Origin: Planctomycetota bacterium
GTDB taxonomy: Bacteria; Planctomycetota; Planctomycetia; Pirellulales; UBA1268
Direction: 5' to 3'
Assembly (NCBI GenBank): GCA_029978905.1
Contig: JAPOIM010000011.1
Span: 1 to 64,000 of the forward strand
DNA: 64,000 bases
In this document: positions 2,375 to 8,922 of the stretch, piece by piece
How the letters are laid out: every line of letters starts with the position of its first letter
Position numbering within the stretch: the stretch's first letter is position 1
Notes under the pieces: generated by a model
Databases searched by the model: none
What the model saw: only the letters and a program-made list of their open reading frames with translations
Told to the model about the DNA's origin: nothing
Translations under genes and position numbers: made by a program

Positions 2375-3688
2375 GTGTCAACGATCAATGCGCTGGCTGC
2401 GGTCGTGATTCGATCGCCCATCCTGTGGGGAGCCGCCGCGGCTTTCTGCTTCTACTCCCTCATTCATGGTGGGATGGTCGACAATCCGATGGTGGTTCGC
2501 TATCTCGCGGGCCACTGGGTCGAGTACGTCGAAGTTGGGATGTTTTTTGTCGGCATCGCTGCCCTGACGCTCCGTCTGCAGGAGGTGTTTGCGCAGCGGA
2601 GACGCGTCGCCGCGGAGCCTCTGGGTGCGATTCCACCTGGAGGGCAGACGCCCGAAGACGTCGACACGCTGCTGGAGGCCCTCGACGATCACGAGGCGGG
2701 CGAGCGGCTGACAACCAGGCTTCAGTCGGCGCTCGACTTCGTCCGCAGGACCGGTTCGGCCAACGAGCTTGAAGACCACCTGAAGTATCTCGCTGACGTG
2801 GAGGGGGCTCGTGCGTCGCAGAGCTATGGCCTCGTGCGGTTCGTGATTTGGGCCATTCCGATCATGGGGTTCCTGGGGACTGTGATCGGTATCACGGTGG
2901 CCATTGCCAACCTCTCGCCATCGCAGATGGAAAACATCACGGATGTCGTGGCTGGCCTGGGAACGGCCTTCGATACCACAGCCACCGCTCTCGGGTTGTC
3001 GATGGTGTTGATGTTCACGCACTTCGTTGTCGATCGGCAGGAGCAGTCGCTTTTGCAGCGGGTTGACGACGCCGCCTGGACGGCCTTGGCTGGTCGCTTT
3101 CAAACGCTCGACGCCGACAATGGCACGGCTTTTGCGATGGCTCGGCTCAGCGACGCCGTCGGGCGCTCATCGGCTCGCCTTTTGGAGTCGCAGGAGAAGG
3201 CCTGGCGCAGCCTGCAGACCAACACGCAGGAACAGCTCACGGCAGTCGCCGACGTTGCCGGCACGCGGATGGCCGAGTCGATCGCATCAGCGGTTGATGG
3301 CGTGCTCGCCGGTTGGGGGCGCTCGCTTCAGGAAGCGAATACCCGACTGCTGGCCGACCGCGAAGATCGCTGGGCATCTGCCGGTGATTCGATGGCTGCG
3401 GCGATGCAGCAGATCAGCGACCTGGTGGTCCGGATGGACGACCAGCAGCGGATCCTCGTTGAGCAAGGGGAGATCCTAGGGCGTGTTGTGGAGGCCACTC
3501 GAGACCTCGCGGCCTTGGAACGCACCCTGGCTCGAAACTTGGAAACCGCTGCAGCGAGCGCCCGTTTTGAAGAGACGCTCAACGCACTTGGGGCTGCTGT
3601 GCAGCTGCTCGCGTCGCGGACCACTCCTGCCGCCGAGCCGAGCCGCCTGGTGGCTCGGAGCGGTTCCCAATACGGAAAGGCCGCATGA
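2375..3688 (+). CDS. MotA/TolQ/ExbB-family proton channel subunit with long C-terminal tail
   Basis: A 437-residue membrane protein. Four hydrophobic segments are visible (about residues 13-32, 50-67, 155-178 and 195-218). The last two carry the MotA/ExbB hallmark: GFLGTVIGITVAI and, after a short loop, LGTAFDTTATALGLSM. In the family this pair lines the ion path and works with an ExbD/TolR/MotB subunit, turning proton flow into mechanical work. After the last helix comes an Ala/Glu/Gln-rich tail of ~215 residues, likely helical and cytoplasmic, which is longer than in ExbB or TolQ. The start is a GTG with GAGG 8 bases upstream; a TTG at 2333 is in frame but weaker. The stop overlaps the next start by 4 bases (ATGA), so the subunits are probably co-translated. 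Confidence 0.85.
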   Translation: MSTINALAAVVIRSPILWGAAAAFCFYSLIHGGMVDNPMVVRYLAGHWVEYVEVGMFFVGIAALTLRLQEVFAQRRRVAAEPLGAIPPGGQTPEDVDTLLEALDDHEAGERLTTRLQSALDFVRRTGSANELEDHLKYLADVEGARASQSYGLVRFVIWAIPIMGFLGTVIGITVAIANLSPSQMENITDVVAGLGTAFDTTATALGLSMVLMFTHFVVDRQEQSLLQRVDDAAWTALAGRFQTLDADNGTAFAMARLSDAVGRSSARLLESQEKAWRSLQTNTQEQLTAVADVAGTRMAESIASAVDGVLAGWGRSLQEANTRLLADREDRWASAGDSMAAAMQQISDLVVRMDDQQRILVEQGEILGRVVEATRDLAALERTLARNLETAAASARFEETLNALGAAVQLLASRTTPAAEPSRLVARSGSQYGKAA

Positions 3689-5727
3689 GTCGCGTACGCG
3701 CCAGCGACGGGCCTGGCATCTCGCTGTTTCCGTTCCTCGCGGTGCTCCTCTGCACGATGGGAGCCCTCTTGGTGCTGCTGGTGATTTTCAGTCGCTCAGC
3801 AGCAGGGACACGGGAAGCCGAAGAGGTCGCCATCCTCGAGGAGATGGCCGTCGAGCGGGAGAGCCTGCGGTGGCGAGTTGAGCAGCTGCAGGCCATGCGG
3901 CAGAAGACGCTCGACGACCTCAGCCAGGCGCGGATGGGGTTGGCGGGGATCGAAGACAACTCGCGCCAGCTGAGCGATGAGTTGGCAGCCCTCGAACGCG
4001 AGATCGCGGCGCTCGCAACCGCCAAGGATGCCGGGAGCGCGGCTCACGCAAAGCTGGAGGCGGAGCTCGAGCGGCGACTCGCAGAGGCCAGCGATGCGCT
4101 CGAGGCAGCCAAAGAAGCAGCGGCCGACCGGCCGCCGGCATATGCGATCGTGCCCTACGACGGGGAAAGTGGCACCCACAGGCGTCCCCTCTACATCGAG
4201 TGTTCGCTCGATGGCGTGTTTCTTCAGCCTGAAGGGATTCGTCTGCGGCCCTCCGATTTTGAAGGGCCGCCTGGCCCCGGCAACCCACTTGCCAGCGCCC
4301 TCCGCGCAGCACGCGAACATCTTGCCGAGCGCGGGCGGGCGTCCGCGTCGCCGGAAGAGCAGCCGTATCCCCTGCTGTTGGTACGACCGTCGGGCGTGAT
4401 GGCCTACTACGCTGCCAGAGAGGCGATCGCGTCGTGGGGAAGTGACTTCGGCTACCAACTGGTGGAGGAGCACTGGCAGCTCAAGTTCCCCTCCCCTGAC
4501 ACGCAGCTTGCCGATGTCGAGCGTCGCGCGATCGATGAAGCCCGCACCCGATTGGCGTGGCTCGAGCAGGTGCAGGGGGCACGCGTGGCGCGTCAGTCGT
4601 CGCCTCGCGTGCAGTACCGGGCGGCCCAGACCCGAGGCGGTGTGGTGGTCGACGGTGGCCCAAGTGTGCTGGGTGATCAGTCCCGCTTTGAGTGGCGCGA
4701 GCCGGGTGGCGACGGTGATGGCTCTGGGCAAGGACATGGGCAAGGGCAAGGCGTGTTCGGCTCGCCCGAAGGGCGTGGCTCTGCCGATGGCAGCGGTTTG
4801 GCGAGTGATGGGCCCGTGAATGGCCCCGGTGGCTACAACCCGGCGGCGACCGGAGGTGGCGACGCGGTGCTTGGTCGAGGAACAGGCACCTCTGGCGCTG
4901 GCTACGGCCCCGAGGGAGGCCAGGGCTCCGATCAAAGCCGGTACGCCGGCCCCTCCGCGTTTGCCTCCACTCCGTCCGCTCCAGGCGATGGCGTGTGGCC
5001 GGGCGGGCAGCCTGGTTCGCCCTCTGGCGGCTCCTTTCAGGGAGGCCAGGGTGGCGTCGGTGGAACCTCGGCGAGCGGCACGGGCCTCGGTGGCGAAGGC
5101 GAACGGGGGGACGGTGGCGACGCGGGTGGCGACGGCTCGCTCAGCAGTGCCGGAGCGTCCTCCATGGCCGGGGCTCCAGGGGCTGCCGGGGGGAGCAGCG
5201 GCGGTTCGTCGTCTTCGAATCAGGCTGGCTCTGGCGGAATGTCCTCATCCGCGATGGGGCAGCAAGGTGGTGGCGGCGTTGGTGTGAACTTCCAGTCAGG
5301 AGGTGGGGGCGATGTGGGGTCGCTCGCGTCGTCTCGAGGTGCCAACTGGGCCAGCATGGCAACCCGTGATCGCCCGGTGCCGCTCTCTCGGCCTGTCCAG
5401 ATTGAGTGTGATGCCGACGAACTCCGTGTGCTCGATAGCGGACGCCGCGTGGTGAAAAAGGTGCCCCTGGGGCCCCGCACGGCCGATGCCATCGATCCGC
5501 TGATCGGGGCAGTTCGCGAGCATGTCGACAGCTGGGGCCTGGCCGGCGACCGGATGTACTGGAACCCGCGCCTTGTCTTGTCGGCGACGCCGGATGGATC
5601 CGGTCGGCGTGAAGATTTGGAGGCCTTGCTCGCGGGGAGTGGGCTCGTGACTGTTCGCCGCGATGACGATGCGGTGGCGGGCCTTCCGCCGGAGAGCGAC
5701 ACGCTTGCGCCGGCGGTGGTTCGCTAG
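3685..5727 (+). CDS. ExbD-like membrane subunit with coiled coil, Gly-rich spacer and duplicated periplasmic domain; channel Asp replaced
   Basis: A 680-residue protein with one N-terminal membrane helix (residues 12-36, ISLFPFLAVLLCTMGAL...). Its position right after an ExbB-like gene and the SLFPFLAV motif resemble ExbD/TolR (typically TPFIDV), but the essential Asp is Ala19. A charged coiled coil follows (about 42-145). Next is domain A (about 150-290) with RPLYIECSLDGV and LLVRPSGVMAYY. A Gly/Ser/Gln-rich low-complexity stretch runs to ~residue 550. Domain B (about 565-665) opens with RPVQIECDADEL, echoing domain A. The fold of A and B as ExbD-like periplasmic modules is inferred. The Gly-rich stretch of over 200 residues may be a flexible arm spanning the periplasm. 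Confidence 0.7.
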   Translation: MSRVRASDGPGISLFPFLAVLLCTMGALLVLLVIFSRSAAGTREAEEVAILEEMAVERESLRWRVEQLQAMRQKTLDDLSQARMGLAGIEDNSRQLSDELAALEREIAALATAKDAGSAAHAKLEAELERRLAEASDALEAAKEAAADRPPAYAIVPYDGESGTHRRPLYIECSLDGVFLQPEGIRLRPSDFEGPPGPGNPLASALRAAREHLAERGRASASPEEQPYPLLLVRPSGVMAYYAAREAIASWGSDFGYQLVEEHWQLKFPSPDTQLADVERRAIDEARTRLAWLEQVQGARVARQSSPRVQYRAAQTRGGVVVDGGPSVLGDQSRFEWREPGGDGDGSGQGHGQGQGVFGSPEGRGSADGSGLASDGPVNGPGGYNPAATGGGDAVLGRGTGTSGAGYGPEGGQGSDQSRYAGPSAFASTPSAPGDGVWPGGQPGSPSGGSFQGGQGGVGGTSASGTGLGGEGERGDGGDAGGDGSLSSAGASSMAGAPGAAGGSSGGSSSSNQAGSGGMSSSAMGQQGGGGVGVNFQSGGGGDVGSLASSRGANWASMATRDRPVPLSRPVQIECDADELRVLDSGRRVVKKVPLGPRTADAIDPLIGAVREHVDSWGLAGDRMYWNPRLVLSATPDGSGRREDLEALLAGSGLVTVRRDDDAVAGLPPESDTLAPAVVR

Positions 5728-5787
5728 GGCCGCTGCCGTGGAAACGATGCGCGTGTTTCTTCTCGTCTCACTCCTGGAGTCCTCACG

Positions 5788-6783
5788 ATGCGGCGAGTAA
5801 CGGTTCGCGAAAACGCCGATGCCGGACAGGATTCTTTCCTCGATGTGGTGACAAACATCGTGGGCATCCTGATCATCCTCGTGATGGTGATCGGTGCCCG
5901 CGTGCACACGCTCTCCCTCTCCTCTGAGGCTTCCGCGTCACCAGCGGTGGCGGTGTCGCTGGAGGAGTTGGCGTCGCTGGCCCAGCAGGCCACCTCCGTG
6001 GAGCACGAACTCGCAGAGCTCGAATCGCAGCTCGTCACGCTCGTGGCTGCGGCCAACGACGCTGGGATGGGACGCATGCAGTTGGCAACGGCAGTGGCGG
6101 CTCTCGAGGTTGAACGGGATGCGCGTCGGGCGTCTGTGGATGAAGACACGGCGCTTGCTGCCAAACACCGTGCGCGGATGGAAGAGCTCAAAGCGGCGAT
6201 TGCCGAGGCCGATGCGGAGGCGAAGGCGCTAGCCTACGACGAGGCGGAAACCGAGGAGGTGCTCGCCTACCCGACGCCAATCGGACGCACCGTCAATGGT
6301 GACGAGATGCATTTTCAGCTGGCCGGCGGCCACATCGCCTACATCCCCCTCGAAGAACTCTTTGGCATGGCCCGCAACCGGGCGCAGCGTCACACCGGCT
6401 CTCTGACGCAGCTCACCAACCACATCGAATCAGTGGGGCCATCAAATGGCTTTTCACTCGACTATGTGATCGAAACCCAAGTTGACCGAGCGCGTGGGCA
6501 GATTCTCGTCCGCAGCCGAGAGTGGGTCGTGCGGCCTCAGCACCAGGCTCTCGGCGAAACGGTCGAGGTGGCATTGGCTCAGGGATCGGCGTTTCGTCGC
6601 AAACTTAGCCGGCTCACCCCCGCGACGACCGTCACGCTCTGGTGCTACCCCGACAGTTTTGAAGCATTTCGCGAAGTGCGCGCCGAACTCTATCGGCTCG
6701 GGATTGCCGCCGCAGGCCGCCCGCTGCCGGAGGGAGCACCGATTGGCGGGTCGGCCGATGGCAGCAAATCGGTTGCGCAGTAG
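5788..6783 (+). CDS. ExbD-like membrane subunit retaining the helix Asp
   Basis: A 331-residue protein with a single N-terminal helix (about residues 17-36) reading SFLDVVTNIVGILIILVMV, close to the ExbD/TolR helix, with Asp19 at the proton-carrying position. Residues 50-150 are Ala/Glu-rich and probably coiled coil (ELAELESQLVTLVAAAND). The C-terminal half (about 155-320) is a soluble domain outside the membrane; its end, TLWCYPDSFEAFREVRAEL, gives a strand-helix pattern like ExbD periplasmic domains. The gene is 60 bases after the Asp-less subunit and on the same strand, and is taken as the third member of the channel operon. The cargo or partner is unknown: no TonB, Pal or flagellar gene is in the window. 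Confidence 0.75.
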   Translation: MRRVTVRENADAGQDSFLDVVTNIVGILIILVMVIGARVHTLSLSSEASASPAVAVSLEELASLAQQATSVEHELAELESQLVTLVAAANDAGMGRMQLATAVAALEVERDARRASVDEDTALAAKHRARMEELKAAIAEADAEAKALAYDEAETEEVLAYPTPIGRTVNGDEMHFQLAGGHIAYIPLEELFGMARNRAQRHTGSLTQLTNHIESVGPSNGFSLDYVIETQVDRARGQILVRSREWVVRPQHQALGETVEVALAQGSAFRRKLSRLTPATTVTLWCYPDSFEAFREVRAELYRLGIAAAGRPLPEGAPIGGSADGSKSVAQ

Positions 6784-6803: not shown

Positions 6804-8162
6804 TTACCTGCCGCAGACTTCGTCGATGCCAGCCAAAGCCGCATCGCACAGCTGATCAATCTCTGCTGGCGTGGTGCACAGTGGCGGCATGATCACCACC
6901 ACGTCCCCCAAGGGGCGAAGCAGCACGCCATGCTTGCGAGCCGCAAGGCAGGCCCGCATGCCCCGTGCCTCCGCAGGGTCATATCGCACGGGGCCCTCGC
7001 GGCTTTCGACGAGTTCGATGGCCGCCATCATGCCGCGGCCGCGCACGTCGGTCACGTGGGGATGGTCGACAAACTCCGCCATACGTTCGCTGAGCCTTGC
7101 CAGCGATGGCTGCATGGCCTCCAGCACGCGTTCGTCTTCGAATACCGCGAGTGACTCCAGCGCAACAGCCGCCGCCAACGGGTTGCCGCCGTACGTGTGG
7201 CCGTGGAAAAACGTTCGCCGCTCGGCGTGCGTGCCGAGGAAGGCATCCCACACCCGTTGCGTGGTGAGCGTGGCAGCCATGGGCATGTAGCCACCGGTAA
7301 GACCCTTGGCGAGGCAGAGGAAGTCGGGTGACACGTCTTCCTGTTCGCACGCAAACAGGGTGCCCGTGCGTCCAAACCCCATCGCCACCTCGTCGAGAAT
7401 CAGCAGCACGTCATGGGCCTGCGTCAGTTCCCGCATGCCTCGCAGGAACCCTGGAGGATGCACAAGGATCCCGCCAGCTGCTTGGACGATCGGCTCCATC
7501 ACCACCGCGGCGATCTCGTGGTGATGCTGCTCAAGGATGTTTGCCAAGCCGGAGAGGGACGCTCGGCAGGCCTCGTCGGGGGTGGTGCCGGGCGGCTGTC
7601 GGCAGACCGCCGGCGAGGGGATGCGGATTGCCTCAAACGTGAGTGGTCCGAAGATCGAGCCAAAGCGGGCCACGCCCCCGACCCCGATCGTTCCGAGCGT
7701 GTCGCCGTGGTACGCCTCACCAATCGAGAGGTACCGCTCACGCGATGGCTGGGCAGGCGTCGTCTGCCGCCAGAACTGAAAGGCCATCTTCAACGCCACC
7801 TCGATCGCCGTGGCTCCGTCGTCCGAGAAGAAGACCTTCTCAAGGCCGGCCGGCGCGACTTCGGTGAGCCGTTTCGCCAACTGCACCGTGACGGGATTGG
7901 AGAGCCCGAGGTTCGTGGAGTGGGCAACCTTCTCGAGCTGCTCGCGAACGGCCCGATCGAGACGCGGGTGATGATGGCCGTGAACGTTGCACCACATGCT
8001 CGCCGACCCATCGAGGTAGCGAGTGCCCTCGACATCGATCAGGGTCGCGCCCTCGCCGCGCTCGATGAGCAGCGGCTCGTATTCGGCCATCTGCGTGAAG
8101 GCATGCCAGACATGGGTCTGATCCCAGTCGGCGAGCGTGGAAAGATCGACAGACTTATTCAT
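6804..8162 (-). CDS. bioA: adenosylmethionine-8-amino-7-oxononanoate aminotransferase
   Basis: A 452-residue class III PLP aminotransferase of biotin synthesis, converting 8-amino-7-oxononanoate to 7,8-diaminopelargonate with S-adenosylmethionine as amino donor. The BioA-type N-terminus VWHAFTQMAEYEP, the loop SMWCNVHGHHHP, the DEVAMGFGRTG motif and the PLP lysine in LAKGLTGGYMPMA are all visible, and full length fits the family. ATG at 8162 is chosen over an upstream in-frame ATG at 8234 because it starts the conserved part and overlaps the stop of the preceding SAM hydrolase gene by 8 bases, implying translational coupling. No other bio gene is in the window. It is the last gene of the long minus-strand run. 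Confidence 0.93.
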   Translation of the reverse strand: MNKSVDLSTLADWDQTHVWHAFTQMAEYEPLLIERGEGATLIDVEGTRYLDGSASMWCNVHGHHHPRLDRAVREQLEKVAHSTNLGLSNPVTVQLAKRLTEVAPAGLEKVFFSDDGATAIEVALKMAFQFWRQTTPAQPSRERYLSIGEAYHGDTLGTIGVGGVARFGSIFGPLTFEAIRIPSPAVCRQPPGTTPDEACRASLSGLANILEQHHHEIAAVVMEPIVQAAGGILVHPPGFLRGMRELTQAHDVLLILDEVAMGFGRTGTLFACEQEDVSPDFLCLAKGLTGGYMPMAATLTTQRVWDAFLGTHAERRTFFHGHTYGGNPLAAAVALESLAVFEDERVLEAMQPSLARLSERMAEFVDHPHVTDVRGRGMMAAIELVESREGPVRYDPAEARGMRACLAARKHGVLLRPLGDVVVIMPPLCTTPAEIDQLCDAALAGIDEVCGR

Positions 8163-8922
8163 AGACAGTGACCGCAGTTCCAAGTTCACCACCGAGCAGC
8201 CGAGCGGCCGAGCCCTCGACGACGGCGATCTCAATCACTCCCTGCGAGCCGACGAGCGCCACTGCCGAGCCTGCAGGGGCATCGCCGTAGGTCCGCACAG
8301 GGCGGTCGATCCAGCGATCACCGAGGTGTAGCCCACCGGCCGCAAGCACGGCAGGCCACCAGGTGGCAGGGAGGTTTGTGAGCAGGTTGCCAAAGTGGTC
8401 GATGAAGCAGACTTCGCCGCGAATGCCATCCGGCCCTCGCGTGGGGGCGGCTTCTGGGAGTTGCACAACCGTCGCGAGAGGCTCCCCAAGGGAGTCTGGC
8501 GAATGGCCCTCGAGCAGTTGGCAAGCCGCGGCGGCCACCACGTCCCGCCCGTGAAAGGTGGCGGATGCCTCTGCCGGCACGGGGAGTATCTTCGCCGCAT
8601 CCAGCGATGAGGCTGCGAGTGCGTGCGTCAGCAGGCCGTTGTCTGGAACGAGAAACTGATGGCCGCCCAGCGAGGCCCAGAGCATGTGGCGGGCCGTGCC
8701 CACACCCGGATCAATCACGACCAGGTGCAGGGTGCCCGCTGGAAAGGCGAGGCACGCGTGGCGGAGAAACCAACTGGCTCCACGGATGTCGTGAGCGGGG
8801 AGGTCATGAGAGAGATCGACGATCGTGCAGGCGGCGGCAGCCTGCAGGAGCCTGGCCTTCATCTGAGCCACGTACACACTGCCCGTGCCGAAGTCGGTGG
8901 TCAGGGTGACGATCCGCTGCAT
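8155..8922 (-). CDS. SAM hydrolase (SAM hydroxide adenosyltransferase, DUF62 family)
   Basis: A 255-residue member of the fluorinase/chlorinase/SAM-hydrolase fold. Seen: TLTTDFGTGSVYVAQMK at the N-terminus, DLSHDLPAHDIRGA, VIDPGVGT, VPDNGLL, FHGRD and DHFGNLLTNLP. The hydrolytic triad known for this family is present as Asp40, Arg47 and His124, which favours hydrolysis of SAM to adenosine and methionine rather than halogenation. ATG at 8922 is chosen because conserved sequence begins there; an in-frame ATG at 9003 would overlap gatB. It lies 43 bases after gatB and overlaps bioA by 8 bases. The physiological reason for destroying SAM is not established for most members. Confidence 0.88.
   Translation of the reverse strand: MQRIVTLTTDFGTGSVYVAQMKARLLQAAAACTIVDLSHDLPAHDIRGASWFLRHACLAFPAGTLHLVVIDPGVGTARHMLWASLGGHQFLVPDNGLLTHALAASSLDAAKILPVPAEASATFHGRDVVAAAACQLLEGHSPDSLGEPLATVVQLPEAAPTRGPDGIRGEVCFIDHFGNLLTNLPATWWPAVLAAGGLHLGDRWIDRPVRTYGDAPAGSAVALVGSQGVIEIAVVEGSAARLLGGELGTAVTVYE

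Follow-up and report, generated by a model that had tools for sequence, protein, structure and literature searches.

Three consecutive genes of a planctomycete genome, here called P1, P2 and P3, probably encode an ion-driven 5:1:1 stator or rotary motor of the MotAB, ExbBD and TolQR kind, whose axle would be a heterodimer of two different proteins. The genes lie in the window, i.e., the whole stretch of 64,000 nucleotides that was analyzed. In motors of this kind, two axle helices sit within a MotA/ExbB pentamer and take up protons on their Asp, and current 5:2 models assume two identical axle helices, with their two Asp acting in turn. P3 carries this Asp, and P2 usually has Ala in its place, a split that is conserved far beyond chance. 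We infer a pentamer, a heterodimer, proton flow and an output of rotation or force for P1-P2-P3. If true, a 5:1:1 motor whose axle bears only one acid would have no pair of equivalent axle acids to step through, in contrast to models of MotAB.

The original prediction, made from this DNA alone, described one MotA/TolQ/ExbB protein followed by two single-helix proteins. These proved to be three intact ORFs in one orientation, and the start of P2 overlaps the stop of P1 by 4 nt (ATGA). Their coordinates and those of the main features are listed in Table 1.

Table 1. Features of the P1-P2-P3 locus, in window coordinates
Feature	Coordinates	Strand	Remarks
P1, MotA/TolQ/ExbB-like ring subunit, 437 aa	2375..3688	+	GTG start at 2375; Pfam PF01618 E 5.5e-12
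P1 TM3 pore signature T169 .. G172-I173 (GTVIGI)	2879..2893	+	GTVxHF in switched type; TolQ counterpart GTVWG
P1 TM4 D200-T201-T202 (AFDTT)	2972..2980	+	Asn200 in switched type; T202 aligned with pore Thr of TolQ (ALIATA)
P1 C-terminal tail, ~215 residues	3041..3685	+	Weak PADLOC ZorA2 profile match, residues 160-385
P2, ExbD-like axle protein, Ala19, 680 aa	3685..5727	+	ATG start at 3685
Codon of P2 Ala19, aligned with P3 Asp19	3739..3741	+	
P2 periplasmic domain 1, residues ~157-322	4153..4650	+	AF2 model; conserved in A2 and A4
P2 Gly-rich arm, predicted disordered, residues 326-541	4660..5307	+	pLDDT under 50
P2 C-terminal domain, residues ~548-660	5326..5664	+	AF2; hhalign to domain 1
P3, ExbD-like axle protein, Asp19, 331 aa	5788..6783	+	ATG start at 5788
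Codon of P3 Asp19	5842..5844	+	Invariant in 40-row alignment and in 60/60 loci
P3 coiled-coil shaft helix, ~100 residues (52-150)	5941..6237	+	AF2 pLDDT 88-98
P3 periplasmic alpha/beta domain, residues 164-331	6277..6780	+	AF2

P1 belongs to the MotA_ExbB family (PF01618), which it matched with 46 bits against a curated cut-off of 22.9, and it has the pore Thr of both TM3 and TM4. Residues P162, G165, G168, T169, A198, F199, T201, T202 and L206 are invariant among 58 homologues. When P1 is aligned with TolQ, T169 (TM3) and T202 (TM4) pair with the pore Thr of TolQ, and D200 pairs with an Ile; a Glu is found in TolQ three residues before the ring position of Asp200. The long tail of P1 is as originally described, and from the topology of the family we take it to be cytoplasmic and helical.

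Neither P2 nor P3 matched a Pfam or NCBIfam family above cut-off, and the ExbD/TolR family (PF02472) gave no match to either protein at E <= 1. A PF02472 search of the same genome identified three other genes and neither P2 nor P3. The AF2 model of P2 (mean pLDDT 67) has helices at residues 15-113 and 119-148, followed by a domain, a disordered stretch that corresponds to the Gly-rich arm of the original prediction, and a second domain. The two domains show remote similarity to each other (hhalign probability 82, E 1e-5). The model of P3 (mean pLDDT 83) consists of a helix (14-42), a long helix (52-150) and an alpha/beta domain. At 0.15 nm per residue, the approximately 100 helical residues of P3 would span some 15 nm. 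A Foldseek comparison of the P3 model with the PDB gave zero matches at E <= 1e-3, and the P3 profile found only generic coiled coils among PDB sequences. The C-terminus of P3 (window 6277-6783) has a near-invariant ending, 'IGGS.. GSKS.AQ', throughout the class, which suggests a conserved contact at the extreme end of the protein.

P2 and P3 are related to each other. Profile-profile comparison with hhalign, in which the TM helix and the coiled coil were aligned, gave probabilities of 97.5-97.9 and E values of ~6e-12 to 6e-13, and it reproduced the previously proposed alignment of FPFLAVL with DSFLDVV, in which Ala19 of P2 is paired with Asp19 of P3. The codons confirm both residues (Table 1). 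The similarity does not extend to the periplasmic domains: when the C-terminal domain of P3 was compared with the two domains of P2, no profile similarity was detected (hhalign probability 1-3).

We further analyzed whether the gene set and the Ala/Asp split occur in other planctomycetes, as the original prediction had proposed to check. The order P1-P2-P3 on one strand, i.e., one ring gene and two axle genes as in AglRQS, was preserved in 56 of the 60 loci retrieved. Residue 19 of P3 was Asp in all 60, and residue 19 of P2 was Ala in 50, Ser in six, Thr in one and Asp in three (thus Ala/Ser/Thr in 57); the six Ser-bearing proteins represent a shorter, second paralogue. P3 was detected in 84 of 99 near relatives, with all 45 genera represented. 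In the class as a whole, P3 profile matches were found in 353 of 398 genomes and 179 of 192 genera, and matches outside the class were weak. A P2 pattern in which residue 19 was left free identified 252 of the 398 genomes, with Ala or Ser in nearly all of the matches listed, and most of the genomes without a match differ in the flanking motif, where they have M, V or I. In family f78, for which one genome (G290) was checked, the P2 helix is different and likewise carries no acid. The P1-P2-P3 set is carried by almost all planctomycetes of the class, and the motor is probably proton-driven. A literature search, with subscription journals and preprints outside its coverage, found no paper describing the Ala/Asp split, and there is no mention of ExbB, ExbD, MotA or TonB in the main texts of the essential-gene papers on P. 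limnophila and V. spinosum.

In the mechanism that we propose, a P1 pentamer would enclose a single helix each of P2 and P3, the 5:1:1 ratio being taken by analogy. Asp19 of P3 would take and release the proton. Ala19 of P2 would lie at the same level and offer no acid, and the ring would provide Asp200 of P1, two residues before the pore residue Thr202. The long helices of P2 and P3 would wind into a coiled-coil shaft that crosses the periplasm, bearing the C-terminal domain of P3 and the two domains of P2, one of them on a flexible arm of 215 residues that could reach the wall or the outer membrane. The homology and joint encoding of P2 and P3 fit such a mixed axle.

An unlikely alternative, although the best of those considered here, is that one ring protein serves two homomeric motors: P1 would hold a P3 homodimer in an active motor and a P2 homodimer in an inactive or regulatory one. 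Given the long coiled coils of both proteins, P2 and P3 are each plausible homodimers, and the Myxococcus motor has been described as able, in theory, to assemble as AglRQ or as AglRS (PMC9389320). However, the joint presence and the order of the genes are near-invariant, the C-terminal domains of P2 and P3 differ, and a P2 homodimer that lacks the acid would have zero axle carboxylates.

The mixed axle draws further evidence from the minority of systems in which P2 is acidic. When P2 has Asp or Glu at position 19, P1 nearly always has H172-F173...N200 (GTVxHF, AFNTT) in place of G172-I173...D200. We refer to this ring as the H-F/N or switched type. Residue 200 of P1 was D in 61 of 61 G-I type proteins and N in 20 of 20 H-F type proteins. 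When two independent patterns were run against the same 398 genomes, 26 matched the H-F ring pattern, 24 the acidic-P2 pattern and 20 both (Fisher p 9e-25, relatedness ignored). The acidic-P2 pattern also hit G408, G417 and G456, apparently by chance or in unrelated sequences, and these matches were excluded from the P2 counts. Upon hand reading, an acid was present at P2-19 in 22 of 25 genomes in which no P1 other than an H-F/N ring is known, with G544 counted among the 25 in spite of an odd ring that is also present, and G547 left out because it has both ring types and an Ala P2. Of these 22 acidic proteins, 21 have Asp and one (G485) has Glu. The coupling, as read from the sequences, is not absolute: an H-F/N ring occurs with a non-acidic P2 in G425 and G385 (Ala) and in G095 (Ser), and an acidic P2 occurs with other rings in G570 (Asp, P1 with D200) and G557 (Asp, odd P1). 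In G413 and G610, P2 has Ser/Thr and P1 combines N200 with G172. Among all P2 and P3 columns, position 19 of P2 was the best separator of the two P1 types (0.86), compared with 0.67 for the next P2 column and 0.65 for the best P3 column.

These exceptions bear directly on the original prediction of a heteromeric stator, which is partly supported, namely by the gene order, by the Ala/Asp split and by P2-P3 homology. It had named two findings that would count against a conserved heteromeric channel. The first, homologues whose first axle protein keeps Asp, do exist (Asp or Glu in P2 of 22 of the 398 genomes, all of which also have the H-F/N ring, and of G557 and G570). As such exceptions accompany a changed P1 pore, they support rather than refute a functional contact between P2-19 and the pore, and this covariation would place the P2 helix inside it. 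The second, scattered genes, holds only for some of the switched genomes.

Three related observations concern unusual loci. In G496 (contig C385, locus L339), the P2 TM helix is P3-like (GSDSFLDVLANMVG), as if copied from P3. In L258 (G557) and L346 (G544), Asp-type P2 is linked to a ring in which the GT and AFDTT motifs are missing (GLLGLVLGF..), possibly a degenerating or re-purposed copy; G544 has a separate H-F/N ring elsewhere in its genome. Finally, L169 (G093, contig C24) represents a third two-axle system, with an AFDTT ring and axles SLFSFQDIITSVTG (first) and SLELLLDTICNTFGG (second), both of which have the Asp.

It is improbable, in our view, that the coupling is inherited rather than functional, such that acid-type P2 and H-F/N P1 would be old subtypes that travel together. 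The H-F/N P1 proteins do form one clade, with a support of 100 in a 12-row tree and again in a 20-row tree (all trees were quick searches with SH-aLRT as the support measure), and some switched genomes are closely related (e.g., genera g30, g29 and g292). Their partners, however, lie among Ala-type relatives of their own families, both in the P3 trees and in a P2 tree from which the TM helix had been removed. Switched G087 groups with Ala-type G071 in both the P2 and P3 trees, switched G485 groups with Ala-type G079 in the P3 tree, and G502 and G573 group with their own family. The acid trait required 8 changes in the first P3 tree, 5 of them forced by supported branches, and 8 in the P2 tree, 4 of them forced; in a larger P3 tree, it required 11 changes and the H-F/N trait 12. 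AU tests, with groups chosen after the trees had been seen, rejected a single P3 clade of the H-F/N rows (p 5e-103) and a P1 tree in which G502 and G573 were placed within their family (p 7e-9). In addition, P1 is on a different contig than P2-P3 in G060, G077, G087, G095, G485, G502 and G576. In supported independent pairs, both traits moved together or one was unchanged; on average they never moved in opposite directions, which occurred only in a few of 200 random pairings. Since there are only 4-5 such pairs, a sign test cannot reach 0.05. The combination of one P1 clade with P2 and P3 partners scattered among Ala-type relatives indicates that P1 type and P2-19 switched together several times. 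Our reading of the trees is that a ring gene of the other type may have replaced the resident gene several times, or that old paralogues may have been differentially kept, and that P2-19 followed.

Slightly less probable still is a position of P2 at the rim of a P1-P3 motor, as a force transducer similar to TolA or TonB, with its likeness to P3 reflecting ancestry only. Transducers, like P2, have a flexible arm and a C-terminal domain, and vWA transducers adjoin tolQ and tolR-like genes in the PVC group (PMC12204202). Against this, P2 can be aligned with P3, an axle protein, and P2-19 follows pore residues 172, 173 and 200 of P1, which would not be expected for a helix at the rim. The least probable reading is that Ala19 reflects decay, with the motor role of P2 lost and only a scaffold left: in ExbD and MotB, an Ala in place of this Asp is a simple loss-of-function state, but the TM segment of P2 (LFPFLAVLLCTMG) is among its best-conserved portions, the Ala state is kept through the class, and the acid appears in several lineages that have the other P1 type.

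The 5:1:1 assembly also permits a tentative account of the acids, to which we give less weight than to the assembly itself. The usual type seems to use D19 of P3 and five D200 of P1, and the switched type seems to use D19 of P3 and D19 of P2, with His172 in the ring. Possibly, then, the motor has one axle carboxylate (P3 Asp19) and five ring Asp200, and replacement of the ring shifts the second acid from ring to axle or back; with a His172-Phe173/Asn200 ring, P2 usually has Asp or Glu at position 19. As the ring supplies an acid in Ala-type systems, the original description of P2 as the non-carrying subunit, while correct with regard to Ala19, is too simple. In general, D200 does not preclude an acidic axle pair, because L169 has all three acids, and the location of the second acid on either ring or axle seems to be a pattern within the family and no law. 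The exchange of the ring, with the acid usually reappearing in P2, is a natural experiment on proton use, and the built-in Ala helix and the natural co-switches of ring and axle allow the two-Asp model to be tested directly.

Several known systems resemble P1-P2-P3 in part. One is AglRQS, the gliding motor of Myxococcus xanthus, which has one MotA/TolQ-like protein and two MotB/ExbD-like proteins (PMC9389320). The conserved Asp is reported for both of its axle proteins, AglQ and AglS, in contrast to the Ala/Ser/Thr of most P2 proteins; neither a Gly-rich arm nor a two-domain protein like P2 is described there, and heterodimer formation is stated as unknown (PMC9389320). ExbBD and TolQR share with P1-P2-P3 the ring family, the pore Thr positions and a single axle helix with Asp (P3), and differ in that the present system has two non-identical axle proteins (one with Ala), long coiled coils and no PF02472 match. 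GldLM, which functions in type IX secretion and gliding, likewise has a long periplasmic shaft and a long cytoplasmic tail (PMC9389320) but no clear sequence homology to MotAB, whereas P1 is clearly in PF01618. With regard to Zorya, a PADLOC scan of P1-P4 showed that ZorA profiles match P1, including its tail, weakly (E 9e-7), and found no match of P2, P3 or the upstream gene to ZorB, ZorC, ZorD or ZorE. P1-P2-P3 are core genes of a class and not a mobile defence island, and a Zorya assignment was rejected.

A 2025 study described loci of the PVC group in which tolQ-like, TPR and vWA genes adjoin two heterologous tolR-like genes (PMC12204202). This TPR-tolQ-tolR-tolR-vWA locus, from the same superphylum, also has one ring gene and two different ExbD/TolR-like genes; the window proteins differ from it in lacking a Pfam ExbD match and a recurrent vWA or TPR neighbour. 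A locus that looks like the reported type occurs elsewhere in the genome studied here (L220, contig C197, 16000-23180, at the contig end), with a TPR-type gene, an ExbB and two ExbD (MTPMIDM and MTPMIDI), both with Asp. Since the genome has this both-Asp locus in addition, the system in the window is separate from the PVC type.

Clustering of the neighbours over the loci, in search of a driven partner, yielded ordinary genes only (bioA-like, ResB-like, an HTH-TM protein, QueC-like and a small protein) and none that would reveal the load. No TPR or vWA gene was recurrent beside the operon, and tonB, tolA, tolB and pal were not apparent among the recurrent neighbours at the locus. The absence of special recurrent neighbours, together with the near-universality of the set in the class, suggests an envelope housekeeping task in these planctomycetes, whose cell envelope is poorly understood. 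In the window, a QueC-like gene (1432-2184) is located upstream of the operon and a bioA-like aminotransferase gene (6804-8234) downstream; both are also found near the operon in other families, which probably reflects synteny and not a functional tie. In 21 of 54 loci (within L060-L116; e.g., L073, 7766-9103, + strand), the upstream neighbour is divergent and encodes a protein with an HTH/excisionase-like start, a low-complexity middle and a C-terminal TM helix, and some of these genes adjoin a ResB-like gene.

The Ser-type paralogue extends beyond the class. A pattern combining LFPFLS and DSLLD matched 200 stretches of named genomes, and the best 80 of these were from Planctomycetota, Verrucomicrobiota, Kiritimatiellae, Lentisphaerae and Myxococcota/Deltaproteobacteria. 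Ser is part of the search pattern, so its presence there is no independent evidence. Residue 200 of the ring, which lies outside the pattern, was Asp in 76 of the 78 loci in which P1 was found, with one Asn and one unread, and the P3 of this paralogue had Asp wherever it was readable. The occurrence of a Ser-bearing relative in Verrucomicrobiota, Lentisphaerae and Myxococcota indicates that the asymmetric design is no local oddity. Akkermansia- and Prosthecobacter-named records are among these loci (L349-L428).
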